Below, one piece after another: positions 10,098 through 17,101 of a DNA stretch of 64,000 nt. Origin of the DNA: Paenirhodobacter ferrireducens (lineage in GTDB: Bacteria; Pseudomonadota; Alphaproteobacteria; Rhodobacterales; Rhodobacteraceae); NCBI RefSeq assembly GCF_004022265.1, contig NZ_SAVB01000002.1, forward strand, positions 186,001-250,000. Reading direction: 5' to 3'. The notes below the pieces were generated by a model. It saw only the letters and a list, made by a program, of their open reading frames with translations, searched no databases and was not told where the DNA came from. The position numbers were made by a program, and so were the translations under genes. Position 1 is the first letter of the stretch, and each line of letters starts with the position of its first letter.

Positions 10098-10327
10098 TCC
10101 AGTCCCTTCTGCGCAAACTGTCACGCGCCCTGATATAGCGCCTTGAGTGCAAAAGGGAAAACCCCGTCCGGGGCGAAGAGTGCCGGACCCGGCGCCGGCC
10201 AGCGGCCGCCCATTTTTTAAGCGCCCCCTCCGCTGCCGTCGCTTTCGGGCCCGCCTGCCATGCGTTAGGGGTGGTGGTGTCAGGGCCATCGCCTAATCTG
10301 GCCGCACCGAACGAAGAAGGCGCGACC

Positions 10328-13300
10328 ATGGCGATTTACGCATCCATCCATCACCTGACGCATTACAAGTATGACCGGCCCGTCACTCTGGGCCCGCAGA
10401 TCATCCGCCTGCGTCCCGCGCCGCATTCGCGCACCCGGGTGATCTCGCATTCACTGAAGGTCTCGCCCGGCGGGCACTTCGTGAACCACCAGCAGGACCC
10501 CTACGGCAACTGGCTCGCCCGCTTCGTCTTCCCCGAGCCGGTGACCGAGCTGAAGATCGAGGTCGATCTCGTCGCCGACATGACGGTCTACAACCCCTTC
10601 GACTTCTTCGTCGAGGAAAGCGCCGAATACTGGCCCTTCGAGTATCCTGAAGAGCTGCGCGACGACCTGTCGATCTATCGCACGCCCGAGCCCGAGGGCC
10701 CACTGCTGGCCCAGCTCCTCGGCACGATCGATTACAGCAAGACCCGCACCGTCGATTTCCTCGTCAACCTGAACGCGCGGATCGCGAACGGGATCAACTA
10801 CACGATCCGGATGGAGCCCGGCGTGCAGACCCCGGACGAGACGCTCGGCCTGCGCTCGGGCTCGTGCCGCGACAGCTCGTGGCTCTTGGTGCAGGCGCTG
10901 CGACACCTCGGCTTTGCCGCGCGCTTCGTCTCGGGCTATCTCATCCAGCTCAAGCCCGATGTCGTCTCGCTCGACGGGCCGGCGGGCACCGACCACGATT
11001 TCACCGACCTGCACGCCTGGTGCGAGGTCTACCTGCCCGGTGCTGGCTGGATCGGGCTCGACCCGACCTCGGGGCTTTTGACCGGCGAAAGCCACATCCC
11101 GCTCGCCGCAACGCCGCATTACCGCAATGCCGCGCCGATCGTTGGCGGCTTCACCGCCGCCGGCACGCCCGAGGTCAGCTTCGATTTCGACATGAAGATC
11201 AATCGTGTGGCCGAACACCCGCGGATCACCAAGCCGTTCTCGGACGAGGCCTGGGAGCGACTCAACGCGCTTGGCCGCAAGGTCGATGAGACCCTGCGCG
11301 ACGGCGACGTGCGGCTGACCATGGGCGGGGAGCCGACCTTCGTCTCGGTCGACGATTTCGAATCGGCCGAGTGGAACACCGCCGCCGTCGGCCCGCAGAA
11401 GCGCGGGCTGGCCGATACCCTGATCCGCCGGCTGAAGCAGCGCTTCGCGCCCGGCGGCTTCCTGCATTACGGTCAGGGCAAGTGGTATCCGGGCGAAAGC
11501 CTGCCGCGCTGGACCTTCTCGCTCTACTGGCGCAACGACGGGCTGCCGGTGTGGCAGAATCCCGAGCTGATCGCGCGCGAGGATGCCCCGCAGCAGATGG
11601 GCTCGGCCGAGGCGGGAGCGTTTCTCTCGACCTTCGCGACCAGGCTCGGCCTCGACGGCAATTATGCCCAGCCCGCCTACGAGGATCCGGCCGAGTGGAT
11701 ACTGAAGGAAGCGAACCTGCCGCCGAATGTCTCGCCCGAGAACTCCAGGCTGAAGAACCCCGAGGACCGCGCCCGCTATGCCCGCGTCTTCAACCGCGGC
11801 CTGACCGAGCCCTCGGGCTATGTGCTGCCGCTTCAGCGCTGGTGGCAATCGGCCGACAGGCCGTCGCACTGGCGCTCCGAGCTGTGGAAACCGCGGCGCG
11901 GCCATATCTTCCTGATCCCCGGCGACAGCCCGGTGGGCTTCCGCCTGCCGCTCGGATCGCTGCCCTATATTCCGCCCGCGCAATATCCCTACAGCTACCC
12001 GGCCGATCCGACGGTGCCGCGCGCGCCGCTGCCCGATTATCAGGCCGTGGTCGCGGAACGCCGCCGCAAGATCCAGGAAGAGATCGACCGCCTCGCGCAG
12101 GAAGACGCCGAGCGCGCCGCGCTGCTGCCCGGGGTGACGCCGGGCCATGCGCAGGGCTTCCGCGCCGGTGCGAAAGAGGCCGAGCGGCAGACATGGGTGC
12201 CGCAGGACACCCATCTCGGCGACGGGGTCGATCCCGCAATCGGCGCGGTGCGCACCGCGATCGCGATCGAACCGCGCGACGGCCGGCTGTGCCTCTTCAT
12301 GCCGCCCTGCGACACGCTCGAGGATTACCTCGAACTGATCGCCACCGCCGAGGCGACGGCGGCCGAGCTGAACCTGCCGATTCACATCGAGGGCTATGCG
12401 CCGCCGCATGACCCGCGGCTGAACGTGATCCGCGTCGCCCCCGATCCGGGCGTGATCGAGGTCAACATCCACCCCGCGCACAGCTGGGAGGATTGCGTCG
12501 CCACCACCGAAGCGATCTATGAAGAGGCGCGGCTGTCGCGCCTTGGCGCCGACAAGTTCATGATCGACGGCCGCCACACCGGCACCGGCGGCGGCAACCA
12601 CGTGGTTGTCGGCGGCGCCACACCGAATGACAGCCCGTTCCTGCGCCGCCCCGATCTGTTGAAATCGCTGATCCTGATCTGGCAGCGCCACCCCTGCCTC
12701 AGCTACCTGTTCTCGGGCCTGTTCATCGGCCCGACCTCGCAGGCCCCGCGCATCGACGAGGCGCGCCACGACACGCTTTACGAGCTTGAGATCGCCCTTT
12801 CGCAGATCACGCCGCCCTGGAAGGGGATGACGCCGCCGCCGTGGCTGGTCGACCGGCTGTTGCGCAACATGCTGACCGACGTCACCGGCAACACGCATCG
12901 CGCCGAGATCTGCATCGACAAGCTCTATTCGCCCGACGGGCCGACCGGCCGGCTGGGTCTGGTCGAGTTCCGCGGCTTCGAGATGCCGCCGCATCCGCGC
13001 ATGTCGCTCGCCCAGCAACTGCTGCTGCGCGCGCTCATTGCGCGGTGCTGGATCGCCCCGGTCGAGGGCCGGCCGGTCCGCTGGGGCACGGTGCTGCATG
13101 ATCGCTTCATGCTGCCGCACTACCTGTGGGAAGACCTGCTCAGCCTGCTCACCGACCTGAAGAACCACGGTTTCGAGATGGATCCGGTCTGGTTCGAGGC
13201 GCAGGCCGAGTTCCGCTTCCCGTTCTGCGGCCAGATCCAGGCCGAGGGCGTTCATCTCGAGGTGCGTCAGGCGCTCGAGCCTTGGCATGTGCTGGGCGAA

Positions 13301-13768
13301 ACCGGCGCGATCGGGGGCACCGTGCGCTACACCGACAGTTCGGTCGAAAGACTTCAGGTGAAGTTGACCACCCTCCATCAGGACCGCTACAAGGTGATGT
13401 GCAATCGCCGCCCCGTGCCGATGGCCAAGACCCAGACCTCCGGCGTCTCGGTCGGCGGCGTGCGCTTCAAGGCCTGGCAGCCGCCCGAGGCGCTGCACCC
13501 GACGCTGCCGGTGAATGCGCCGCTCGTCTTCGACATCTACGACACCTGGACGGGGCATGCGCTGGCCGGCTGCACCTATCACGTGGCCCATCCCGGCGGG
13601 CGCAACTACGACACCTTCCCGGTCAACGCCTACGAGGCCGAGGCGCGGCGCCTCGCCCGGTTCGAGCCCTTCGGCCACAGTGCCGGCGTCTATGCCCCCG
13701 CCAGCGAGACCCCGCATCCGGAATTCCCCTTGACGCTGGACCTGCGCCGGCCCATCGGACTGTTCTGA
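10328..13768 (+). CDS. transglutaminase-like protease domain fused to DUF2126 amidoligase-like domain
   Basis: A 1146-aa cytoplasmic protein. The N-terminal transglutaminase-like domain (1-275) has the triad Cys180 (G-S-C-R-D-S-S-W), His229 ([10 protein letters not shown]) and Asp245 (GLDPTSG). The DUF2126 region (about 320-1130) contains [22 protein letters not shown] and V-E-F-R-G-F-E-M. These recall glutamine-synthetase/GCS-like COOH-NH2 ligases, a relationship proposed for this family from sequence analysis. The ATG at 10328 gives the usual [18 protein letters not shown] start. It is first in an operon with an ATP-grasp/alpha-E protein and a second transglutaminase. The substrate is unknown; peptide or protein amide modification is inferred. 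Confidence 0.85.
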
Positions 13769-13789
13769 CCAAAGAGCCAGAAATGAACC

Positions 13790-16207
13790 ATGACCGAGCC
13801 AGCCCCGATGCCCCCCGCCCCGGACCTCTTCTCCGACTACCGGCTTACCCCGGGCGTCGCGGACGAGCTGTTCGACGCCGAGGGGCGGATGCGGCCGGTC
13901 TGGCGCCGTTTCGTCGACCGCTTCTCGCGCCTCAACCGTGACGAGATTGCCGCGCGCTTCGAGCGCGGCAATCTCTATCTGCGCGATGCCGGCGTGTTCT
14001 TCCGGCAATATTCGAACGACCCGCTGCAGGAACGGGAATGGCCGCTCAGCCATATCCCGGTGATCCTGCACGAGGACGAATGGCGGGGCATCTGCGACGG
14101 GCTGGCGCAGCGCGCCGACCTGCTCGAGGAGGTGATGGCCGATCTCTACGGTCAGGGCCGCCTCGTGCGCGACGGGCATCTCCCCGCCGAGCTGATCGCG
14201 GGCTCGCGGCAATGGCTGCGGCCGATGGTCGGCGTGCCGCCGCGCGGCGGCCATTACCTGCATTTCCTCGCCTTCGAGGTCGGCCGCTCTCCCGACGGCT
14301 CGTGGCTGGTTCTGGGCGACCGCACGCAGGCGCCCTCGGGCGCGGGCTTTGCGCTGGAAAACCGGATGGCGACCGGGCGGATCTTCCCCGAACGCTTCCC
14401 GCGCGCCCATATCCACCGCCTTGCCGGCTTCTTCGGCGCCTATCGCGAGGCCCTGCAACGGCTTGCCCAGGGCCCGAACGGGCGCGAGCGCACGGCGGGC
14501 ATCCTCACACCCGGACCGCATAACGACAGCTATTACGAACACACCTACATCGCGCGCTACCTCGGCCTGATGCTGCTCGAGGGCGAGGATCTTCTGGTCG
14601 AGAACGGTCAGGCGATGGTGCGCACGATCGAGGGGCCGCAGCCGCTCGGCGTGCTGTGGCGGCGCATCGACGGCGCCTTCGCCGATCCGCTCGAACTCGA
14701 CCCTTCCAGCCGGATCGGCACGCCGGGGCTGATGGAGGCGGTGCGGCTTGGCAACCTCGCCCTCGTCAACGCGCTCGGGTCTGGCGTGCTCGAGATGCGG
14801 GCGATGATGGCCTTCCTGCCGCGGATCTCCGAGGTGCTGGCAGGCGGGCCGCTGAAACTGCCGAACATCGCCACCTGGTGGTGCGGCGGCGCGACCGAGC
14901 GCGGCTATGTGCAGGAAAACGCCGCGCGGATGATGATCGGCCCGGCCTATGCCTGCGACCTGCCCTTCGACCTCGGCGCCGAGTCGGCGCTTGGCGGCGC
15001 CTTCCGCGACGGCGGCACCCGTTCGATCGCCGACTGGCTCGAACGCGACGGCAAGGGCCTCGTCGGCCAGGAGGCGGTGACGCTGTCGACAACGCCCGTC
15101 TGGGTCGATGCCGAGGACGGCGGCCGGGTCGAGCCGCGGCCGATGACGATCCGCATCTTTGCCGCGCGCACGCCGCGCGGCTGGCGCTTCATGCAGGGCG
15201 GCTATGCCCGGATCGGCAAGACCGGCGACGCGACGGCGCTGGCGATGCAGCGCGGCGGGTCGGTCGCCGACGTCTGGGTTGTCTCCGACCGGCCGGTGCC
15301 GCAAGAAACCCTCGCGCCGCGCCCGACGCCCGACTTCCACCGCGCCACCACCGCGATCCTGCCCTCACGCGCGGCCGACAACCTCTATTGGCTCGGCCGC
15401 TATGTCGAGCGCAGCGAAGACGCGATCCGCCTGATCCGCGCCTATCACCTGCGCCTTGCCGCGACCGACAACCCGAATGACGCGCGCCTGCTGCGGCTCG
15501 ACGAGTTCCTCACCGGCTATGGCTATGACCTCGCCGAACCGGTGCCGGCGGCGCTGATCGACCGGCTCGAGGCGGCGCGCAGCTGCGCGGGCAAGGTGCG
15601 CGACCGGTTCTCGACCGATGGCTGGGCGGCACTGAGCGACATGCTGAAGACGGCGCGGCGGATGACCACGACGGCCAAACCCGGCGACGATGCCGCCCGC
15701 GCGATGTCGGTGCTGCTGCGCAAGATCACCGGCTTTTCCGGCCTCGTGCACGAGAACATGTATCGCTTCTCGGGCTGGCGTTTCCTCAGCTTCGGCCGGG
15801 CGCTCGAGCGGGCGGATTCGCTCGCTGCGCTGCTCGCCACCTTTGCCGATGCCGAGGCACCCGAGGGCTCTCTCGACATGGCGGTCGAGGTCGCCGACAG
15901 CGTCATCACCCACCAGCGCCGCTACCGGGTCGAGACCTCGCGCGATACCGTCGTCGATCTGCTCGCGCTCGATGCCGACAACCCGCGCGCGATCCTGTTC
16001 CAGGTGCAGCGGCTGCGCTATCTGGCCGAGGCCCTGCCGGATGCGCGCGAGAACGGCCGGCTGACGGCGCTGCTGCGCGCGATCGTGCCGGTCGAAAGCG
16101 CGCTGCTGATCGCCACGCCGGCCGAGATCGACACCGGGCGGCTGTCGGCCCTGCGTGGCGATCTGGCCGGGATTTCGGATCTCATCGGCGCCGCCTATCT
16201 GCGGTAA
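13790..16207 (+). CDS. circularly permuted ATP-grasp (type 2) fused to alpha-E domain
   Basis: An 805-aa fusion. Residues 1-500 are the circularly permuted ATP-grasp domain (DUF404/DUF407). Its landmarks are G-V-F-F-R-Q-Y, TPGPHNDSYYEHTYIARYLG, L-P-N-I-A-T-W-W-C-G and P-M-T-I-R-I-F. Residues 523-805 are the helical alpha-E domain (DUF403), beginning SRAADNLYWLGRYVERSED. In many bacteria these are separate genes. ATP-grasp enzymes join a carboxylate to an amine using ATP; the partner substrate here is unknown. The gene starts 21 bases after the DUF2126 gene and is followed 9 bases later by a second transglutaminase. Confidence 0.88.
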   Translation: MTEPAPMPPAPDLFSDYRLTPGVADELFDAEGRMRPVWRRFVDRFSRLNRDEIAARFERGNLYLRDAGVFFRQYSNDPLQEREWPLSHIPVILHEDEWRGICDGLAQRADLLEEVMADLYGQGRLVRDGHLPAELIAGSRQWLRPMVGVPPRGGHYLHFLAFEVGRSPDGSWLVLGDRTQAPSGAGFALENRMATGRIFPERFPRAHIHRLAGFFGAYREALQRLAQGPNGRERTAGILTPGPHNDSYYEHTYIARYLGLMLLEGEDLLVENGQAMVRTIEGPQPLGVLWRRIDGAFADPLELDPSSRIGTPGLMEAVRLGNLALVNALGSGVLEMRAMMAFLPRISEVLAGGPLKLPNIATWWCGGATERGYVQENAARMMIGPAYACDLPFDLGAESALGGAFRDGGTRSIADWLERDGKGLVGQEAVTLSTTPVWVDAEDGGRVEPRPMTIRIFAARTPRGWRFMQGGYARIGKTGDATALAMQRGGSVADVWVVSDRPVPQETLAPRPTPDFHRATTAILPSRAADNLYWLGRYVERSEDAIRLIRAYHLRLAATDNPNDARLLRLDEFLTGYGYDLAEPVPAALIDRLEAARSCAGKVRDRFSTDGWAALSDMLKTARRMTTTAKPGDDAARAMSVLLRKITGFSGLVHENMYRFSGWRFLSFGRALERADSLAALLATFADAEAPEGSLDMAVEVADSVITHQRRYRVETSRDTVVDLLALDADNPRAILFQVQRLRYLAEALPDARENGRLTALLRAIVPVESALLIATPAEIDTGRLSALRGDLAGISDLIGAAYLR

Positions 16208-16216
16208 GGGGCTGAC

Positions 16217-17101
16217 ATGCTGTATGAAATCAAGCTCTCGATCGACTACGACTATGCCGCGCCCTCGGATCACATCCGCAATCTGGTGCGGCTTCTGCCC
16301 TCGGACATCCCCGGTCGGCAGCGGGTGCTGTCGCGGCTGCTGACGGTCGATCCGATGCCAGACGAGCGGCGCGAGGCGATCGATTTCTTCGGCAATCCGA
16401 CGACCTCGGTCGCCTGGCATGCACCGATTGACGCGGTCTCGTTCCAGCTCGCCGCCAAGGTCGAGCGCCGCACCGCGGCGCCGAGCGGCGACCTCTCCGC
16501 CCTGCTCGACCGGCTGCCCGCCGAGATCGCGGCGCAGCAGAGCCTTGCCCCCGAGGTGCCGCACCACTTTCTGGGCGCAAGCCCCCGCGTCGCGCCGATG
16601 ACCGAGATCACGGCCTTCGCCCGCAAGCAACTGGCGGCCGGGATGACGGCGCAGCAGGCGGTGGTGGCGGTCGGGCGCGCGCTGAACCGGACGATGACCT
16701 TCGACGCCGAGGCGACCACCGTCGACACCTCGGCGCGCGAGGCCTTCGCGCAGCGCCGCGGCGTGTGTCAGGACTTCACCCATATCATGATTGCCGCCCT
16801 GCGCGGTCTCGGCATTCCGGCGGGCTATGTCTCGGGCTTCCTGCGCACCTTCCCGCCGCCCGGCAAGCCGCGGCTCGAGGGCGCGGATGCGATGCACGCC
16901 TGGGTCCGGGCCTGGGTCGGTTTCGAGGCCGGCTGGATCGAGTTCGATCCGACGAACGACCAGTTCGCCGGTGACGATTACGTCACCATCGCCGTCGGCC
17001 GCGACTATTCCGACGTCGCCCCGGTGCGCGGCGTGATGCGCACCGCGGGCGGGCACGAGACCCGCCAGGCAGTCGACGTGATCCCGCTCGAGAAGATCTG
17101 A
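16217..17101 (+). CDS. transglutaminase-like cysteine protease family protein
   Basis: A 294-aa protein with an N-terminal bacterial transglutaminase-like domain (M-L-Y-E-I-K-L-S-I-D-Y-D-Y) and a catalytic core at about 150-260. The triad is Cys184 (R-G-V-C-Q-D-F-T-H), His227 (DAMHAWVRAW) and Asp244 (EFDPTNDQ). Proteins of this type more often cleave or hydrolyse amide bonds than crosslink proteins. It is third in the operon, preceded by a GGGG ribosome site in the 9-base gap. It may remove what the ligases add, or process their product; this is inferred from gene order only. Its stop lies 3 bases from the convergent cytochrome stop. Confidence 0.88.
   Translation: MLYEIKLSIDYDYAAPSDHIRNLVRLLPSDIPGRQRVLSRLLTVDPMPDERREAIDFFGNPTTSVAWHAPIDAVSFQLAAKVERRTAAPSGDLSALLDRLPAEIAAQQSLAPEVPHHFLGASPRVAPMTEITAFARKQLAAGMTAQQAVVAVGRALNRTMTFDAEATTVDTSAREAFAQRRGVCQDFTHIMIAALRGLGIPAGYVSGFLRTFPPPGKPRLEGADAMHAWVRAWVGFEAGWIEFDPTNDQFAGDDYVTIAVGRDYSDVAPVRGVMRTAGGHETRQAVDVIPLEKI

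Follow-up and report, generated by a model that had tools for sequence, protein, structure and literature searches.

The stretch analysed here, referred to as the window, comprises 64,000 nucleotides of the alphaproteobacterium Paenirhodobacter ferrireducens (contig NZ_SAVB01000002.1, positions 186,001 to 250,000) and carries a compact operon of three open reading frames (ORFs), all on the plus strand, at window positions 10328-17101. The first ORF (10328..13768, +) encodes a protein of 1146 aa, TG-DUF2126, in which an N-terminal transglutaminase(TG)-like domain (10328..11170, +; triad C180/H229/D245 in the family alignment) is fused to a DUF2126 amidoligase-like domain (11171..13768, +). Pfam recovered DUF2126 (E = 0, 1322.5 bits), Bact_transglu_N (2.2e-28) and Transglut_core (3.5e-15) in this protein, and the title of the DUF2126 entry is putative amidoligase. 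The start at 10328 fits an alignment of 27 family sequences, with an in-frame GTG at 10271 as an alternative. Separated by a gap of 21 nt (13769-13789), the second ORF (13790..16207, +) encodes a fusion of 805 aa, which joins a circularly permuted (CP) ATP-grasp enzyme (CP_ATPgrasp_2, 2.9e-125; CP_ATPgrasp_1, 6.1e-75) to an Alpha-E domain (15344..16204, +; 6.5e-54). A gap of 9 nt (16208-16216) precedes the third ORF (16217..17101, +) encoding a stand-alone TG-like protein of 294 aa (TG2; triad C184/H227/D244), which matched Transglut_core (5.9e-19) and Bact_transglu_N (1.5e-15). None of the three proteins matched NCBIfam at E <= 0.001. We refer to this adjacent, one-strand arrangement of TG-DUF2126, CP-ATP-grasp-Alpha-E fusion and TG as the type II operon. 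Its place and domains are those that an earlier note on this DNA had described. The claim of that note that two TG-like proteins flank the ligases is correct in so far as TG domains lie at both ends, but the first of them is no separate protein and forms the N-terminal part of the DUF2126 protein itself.

The catalytic triads predicted for the TG-like proteins proved to be intact throughout the family. Among non-redundant TG domains, Cys, His and Asp were each invariant in 105/105 members fused to DUF2126 and likewise in 105/105 members of the operon's stand-alone TG group. By its triad, each group is predicted to consist of active TG-like cysteine enzymes. Concerning the DUF2126 domain, an AlphaFold2 (AF2) model (865 aa modelled; pLDDT 77.1, pTM 0.79) was submitted to Foldseek, and each of the 50 listed of 180 matches is a member of the superfamily of glutamine synthetases and glutamate-cysteine ligases. 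The best match was YbdK (1r8g, E 4.6e-3, probability 0.99). DUF2126 differs from its closest folds, the YbdK/GCS2 carboxylate-amine ligases, glutamine synthetases and GmaS, by its much larger size and its fusion to a TG-like domain, and a sequence search of the Protein Data Bank (PDB) detected no solved relative. The modest evidence for a glutamine-synthetase-like fold agrees with an amide-ligase role. Iyer et al. 2009 reportedly proposed the same DUF2126 (COG4196) family as amidoligases. At three loci (L125, L130, L327) the DUF2126 frame is in pieces, which could reflect assembly errors or decay; at L171 the contig stops behind DUF2126.

For the ATP-grasp part of the fusion, a profile search of solved structures gave five matches at E <= 1, of which 3n6x (E 3.4e-132) was the sole strong one. 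When 96 fused ATP-grasp domains were aligned with 48 stand-alone ones, 28 columns showed one and the same residue at >=95% in both groups, among them R108, D118, R166, R192, E250, D267, R291, D299, R455 and D494. The Alpha-E domain is all helical in its AF2 model (pLDDT 93.1), and this model found no PDB fold at E <= 0.001 (best 0.45). Two GR..ER motifs, read by eye, are located in the fusion protein at residues 536-541 and 669-674 (window 15389-15412 and 15788-15811). R537, E540, R541, G669, E673 and R674 are kept at >=95% in fused and stand-alone Alpha-E sets alike, and to the eye the two motifs look like an internal duplication of Alpha-E.

DUF2126 is present in 44/289 sampled genomes of the class (Alphaproteobacteria), and in 71/249 sampled genomes of the phylum (Pseudomonadota). 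The named-genome collection contains at least 591 stretches with it, the best 80 of which were used. Moreover, the DUF2126 query matched 26 plasmid records, one of them by its TG part only. A phage origin was rejected, as a pattern scan of viral contigs returned no DUF2126 relative and the one phage record found resembles just the TG part, with 28.9% identity across 26% of the query. The canonical order of TG-DUF2126, fusion and TG is kept in 67/73 named loci from many genera with at least 4 kb of downstream sequence; Sinorhizobium fredii USDA 205 (L153) is one of the carriers. Two of the six misses (L169, L183) are artefacts of the overlap cut-off, and all three genes are present there. Because of the Pfam scores and this conserved order, a chance grouping of the three genes can be excluded. 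On sequence grounds, the window operon is a regular member of a known, widespread and uncharacterised family. DUF2126 is absent from all 13 other listed genomes of the window's own family, three of which also belong to the class sample, and the nearest relatives among the best 80 stretches stem from a Sphingomonadales metagenome-assembled genome (MAG; 86%) and from Rhodobacterales, e.g. Thioclava marina (79%). Other Sphingomonadales among these 80 (L194, L201, L209) are near 60% to the window. This pattern suggests horizontal acquisition or repeated loss.

Contig C38 of the same genome harbours another locus, in which separate genes encode CP-ATP-grasp, Alpha-E, TG and Anbu. This set corresponds to the operon described in two papers on Anbu (PMC5666114, PMC6376114), a proteasome relative first described in 2008 according to the former, and is referred to here as type I. 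A tree was built with 35 of the 96 fused and 35 of the 48 stand-alone ATP-grasp domains. The two groups were split by one branch (100/100) and the window protein fell into the fused rather than the stand-alone clade. The CP-ATP-grasp, Alpha-E and TG families are common to both operons. In the window, however, ATP-grasp and Alpha-E form one protein, and the operon has TG-DUF2126 in addition but is devoid of an Anbu gene; phmmer found none in window 4001-26000. Judged by the paralogy of their ATP-grasp and Alpha-E proteins, the DUF2126 operon is the paralogous partner of the Anbu operon. The earlier note had read the parts correctly and missed this partnership; its interpretation was supported in part. 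The paralogy, the loci shared with Anbu and Peptidase_Mx in other genomes and the sigma-54-type motifs in relatives go beyond it.

In many genomes the two halves are physically joined. DUF2126 was accompanied by Alpha-E in 43 of its 44 genomes, the exception being a genome of 63% completeness. Within the class, DUF2126 adjoins Anbu or the type I pair at ten loci (L079, L081, L087, L089, L102-L105, L107, L108), and at L081, L089, L102 and L104 Anbu lies in one stretch with it. The other classes of Pseudomonadota contributed 40 loci out of 47 such genomes with a DUF2126 match. Here, the type I pair shares the DUF2126 stretch in 33 cases and the fusion does so in 35; the stretch includes Anbu in 12 cases and Peptidase_Mx in 3. 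A like union of both halves was seen in plasmid loci. For instance, a 90-kb IncFII plasmid of Enterobacter roggenkampii (NZ_CP116251.1, L313) carries type I ATP-grasp, Alpha-E, TG-DUF2126, fusion and TG consecutively; insertion sequence (IS) elements and an arsenate reductase gene are found near this five-gene set. Several genomes of the class encode a solitary, divergent Anbu-like protein of 35-40% identity (L113, L114, L116, L117), with no ATP-grasp or Alpha-E gene within the 12-kb stretch.

Further partners were sought by clustering the flanking ORFs of >=90 aa in 124 DUF2126 loci, the 30 largest clusters being read by eye with the exception of the Peptidase_Mx one. No constant neighbour emerged among these ORFs: the largest cluster, by eye a generic ABC ATPase, occurs in 23/124 loci. 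One cluster combines a Zn-ribbon with Peptidase_Mx (PF15887), a zinc metallopeptidase family. Homologues of it occur in 12 of the 124 DUF2126 loci and in 5/13 plasmid loci, and at two Peptidase_Mx loci (L162, L177) the fusion gene is not adjacent despite sufficient room. At E < 1e-50, a threshold that dropped six weaker matches, three of them over the family cut-off, Peptidase_Mx was found in 18/289 genomes from 14 families, relatedness being handled by this family count alone. All 18 also contain Alpha-E (p 6e-9). DUF2126 is present in 12 of the 18 (p 4e-7; p 0.017 within Alpha-E-positive genomes). The family thus tracks the system. A reading of the locus as a source of a ribosomally synthesized and post-translationally modified peptide (RiPP) or of a tag precursor was rejected, since the gaps of 21 and 9 nt leave no room for a precursor peptide or tag gene inside the operon and no family of flanking ORFs of >=90 aa exceeds 23/124 loci among the 30 largest clusters.

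A possible regulatory link to nitrogen emerged from relatives of both operons. We scored sequences with >=10/12 matches to the sigma-54 consensus TGGCACG-N4-TTGCW, GG and GC being fixed, from -300 bp to +30 bp inside the gene. In the discovery set, the motif preceded the type I ATP-grasp gene in 9/10 non-alphaproteobacterial plasmid loci (background 2.5%) and in 9/51 other loci (background 0.9%), which are nearly all alphaproteobacterial and include L315 (Acidobacteriota) and a few MAGs labelled otherwise, e.g. L207 (Nitrospirales). The corresponding values for TG-DUF2126 were 1/9 (background 2.4%) and 9/122 (1.2%). A test set was fetched from the same phylum outside the class after the criterion had been fixed. 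It contained the motif in front of 16/30 type I ATP-grasp genes (background 1.8%) and 5/40 TG-DUF2126 genes (background 1.7%). The 16 matches span eight families, seven of the matches coming from one family. Among the controls, the motif occurred at 2/145 unrelated genes and 0/106 inner system genes; control genes were placed by their first possible start and tested genes by alignment, so that the two are imperfectly matched, and random stretches (1.8%) agree with the controls.

The sigma-54-type motifs of the relatives are in line with a published regulon. In PMC5491218, the cluster I35_5080-83 of Burkholderia cenocepacia H111 (DUF404/407, DUF403, TG, large TG) is reported as NtrC- and sigma-54-dependent under nitrogen limitation, with changes of -6.0 to -9.4 fold in an ntrC mutant. 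Another B. cenocepacia strain (L322) has the matching order CP-ATP-grasp, Alpha-E, TG and DUF2126, and thus the large TG of I35_5080-83 is probably TG-DUF2126. Furthermore, induction of Anbu in nitrogen-limited P. putida is cited in PMC5666114. Two observations point weakly in the same direction: PMC3597751 reports that, in marine metagenomes, these domains are associated with domains of urea metabolism, and system genes lie near ntrBC and an aliphatic amidase gene on an Acidithiobacillus plasmid.

Gene content and order, the intact TG triads, the paralogy of the two halves, their frequent physical union and the promoter statistics are established. As to catalysis, substrate, product and physiology, we infer with a rough probability of 0.4 that the genes belong to a system for nitrogen limitation, probably located in the cytoplasm, that forms and cleaves amides and consists of two halves: type II, carried by the window, and type I, the Anbu operon. 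The DUF2126 protein with its putative glutamine-synthetase-like fold and the ATP-grasp proteins would use ATP to activate a carboxylate and couple it to an amine, Alpha-E may aid substrate binding or hand-over, and the TG-like enzymes, together with Anbu or Peptidase_Mx where present, would cleave the conjugate. Its conjugation and release steps would thereby correspond to the cycle that the earlier note had suggested. Judged by the promoter motifs of the relatives and the published regulon, the pathway would serve nitrogen limitation, most likely by scavenging or turning over a nitrogen source, either an amine or a peptide, via a transient amide conjugate. A comparable transient amide route for small amines is provided by PuuA/PuuD and GmaS. 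PMC6376114 reports that a type I ATP-grasp enzyme, from Y. bercovieri, frees phosphate from ATP.

Several results weigh against this interpretation. First, the fold match of DUF2126 is modest, as none of the Foldseek matches reached E <= 0.001 and the TM values were 0.17/0.35. Alignment of DUF2126 with glutamine synthetase and GCS profiles by hhalign was not significant, nor was the positive control of glutamine synthetase against GCS2. Secondly, three lysines present in >=95% of the 48 stand-alone ATP-grasp domains have been lost from the group of 96 fused domains. The aligned sites in the window protein are R337, G384 and A493. The fused group is also more variable, many columns being fixed in the stand-alone group only. 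Taken together, the lost lysines and the variability mean that the fused enzyme may use ATP otherwise or not at all. Its ligase activity is thus not assured, and our confidence in the amide-ligase reading is lowered. Of the two amide-forming ligases that had been predicted for the operon, including the ATP-grasp/Alpha-E fusion, both agree with Pfam and the DUF2126 protein in addition with the modest fold match, but the fusion is called into question by these losses.

The regulatory argument also has its counterweights. No sigma-54 motif was detected upstream of the window operon, and the genome's own type I operon (L073) is not among the motif matches. Nitrogen control is therefore not established for this organism. 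Most DUF2126 operons are likewise devoid of the motif (113/122 in the discovery set, 35/40 in the test set), NtrC-like sites were not enriched (type I 1/30, TG-DUF2126 0/40), and sigma-54 serves other responses as well. With regard to Anbu, its presence in 32/44 genomes with DUF2126 (p 2e-11 over all 289 genomes) is offset by the comparison among Alpha-E-positive genomes, where Anbu occurs in 31/43 with and 47/64 without DUF2126, i.e. without excess. We dropped this co-occurrence as evidence for that reason and consider physical linkage the better evidence. A hint that type II TGs might stand in for a lost type I TG comes from 50 loci, of which four were set aside as cut and four as DUF2126-only. 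The type I TG is intact at 6/26 loci with a type II operon in the genome and at 14/16 without (raw p 8e-5; 15/16 if L225, whose Cys is intact by alignment, is counted), a difference that is not significant after correction for relatedness, which left four supported independent pairs and no power. Finally, a substrate was found for none of the enzymes in this family. In agreement with the earlier note, no known product was found either. Our literature searches returned no paper that names DUF2126, and among the papers listed none joins the DUF2126 and Anbu operons or connects Peptidase_Mx or sigma-54 motifs with them.

A broader proposal, which we regard as doubtful, is that the Anbu operon, the DUF2126 operon and Peptidase_Mx form one widespread, often NtrC/RpoN-controlled pathway of amide conjugation and release during nitrogen starvation. 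Ligases with a glutamine synthetase fold and a permuted ATP-grasp fold would make a new class of amide conjugates, either of an amine nutrient or of proteins as a counterpart of pupylation, and the partly interchangeable hydrolases (TG, Anbu, Peptidase_Mx) would return the nitrogen. Anbu and the families around it are without established function. Linking Anbu, the DUF2126 operon, Peptidase_Mx and nitrogen-type promoters would turn an open-ended hunt for substrates into a defined experiment under nitrogen limitation.

Alternatively, the ligases might tag proteins with a peptide or with single residues, and TG, Anbu or Peptidase_Mx might remove the tag or degrade the target, in function similar to Pup. 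The Pup ligase belongs to the glutamine-synthetase superfamily, as do the fold matches of the DUF2126 model, and a proteasome-like protein in the DUF2126 stretch at 12/40 non-alphaproteobacterial loci and at four alphaproteobacterial ones fits such a scheme. However, the short intergenic gaps leave no place for a tag gene between the three genes, no flank family of ORFs of >=90 aa is frequent, although a smaller tag gene may lie in the flanks, and neither PafA nor Dop is among the 50 listed fold matches. Protein tagging is in print as a hypothesis of Valas and Bourne and of Iyer et al., as cited in PMC6376114; in a test reported there, Anbu was without peptidase activity and did not bind any of its operon partners. 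We consider this explanation unlikely.

Similarly improbable is the biosynthesis of a secreted or storage peptide-like metabolite, e.g. a modified amino acid or oligopeptide, whose trimming would be the task of the hydrolases. One operon with two ligase types and hydrolases does resemble a biosynthetic set, and COG2308 is mentioned in PMC8407117 as possibly involved in small-peptide biosynthesis. Against this stands that no flank family of ORFs of >=90 aa, be it a transporter or any other, recurs beyond the 23 loci of the ABC ATPase. In addition, the three-gene set is constant over many genera. Such constancy across genera is atypical of secondary-metabolite clusters.

Conjugation of a polyamine to a peptide, in which the ATP-grasp enzyme joins the two and the TG-like enzymes hydrolyse the product as in glutathionylspermidine synthetase/amidase, has little probability. 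It derives from 3n6x, the only solved sequence relative of the ATP-grasp part, for which the depositors chose the name putative glutathionylspermidine synthase. The profile search of solved structures met no characterised glutathionylspermidine synthetase, so that this name rests on the depositors' guess. Polyamine genes may still lie nearby, since the flank clusters were read mostly by eye. It is just as hard to favour the idea that the fused ATP-grasp-Alpha-E protein has become a binding or scaffold partner and left the DUF2126 protein as the sole ligase of the operon, because the variability of the fused group and its loss of three lysines are opposed by the 28 columns that both groups share.

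Among known systems other than the Anbu operon, the rlo operon of P. aeruginosa resembles the window operon in combining an ATP-grasp protein, a transglutaminase-fold protein and a peptidase. As described in PMC12239564, it differs in that the TG is an inactive membrane protein, the ATP-grasp protein is RimK-like (24% identity) and the peptidase is a secreted aspartic protease.

The immediate surroundings of the operon in the window are ordinary. They comprise a divergent upstream gene for an AbrB-type membrane protein, genes for a MepK-type peptidase and an L,D-transpeptidase, and lpxB downstream on the opposite strand. Elsewhere in the genome, two glutamine-synthetase-like genes lie at positions 52161-55335 of contig C38, about 20 kb from the Anbu operon, and belong to a total of nine matches to this family in the genome.

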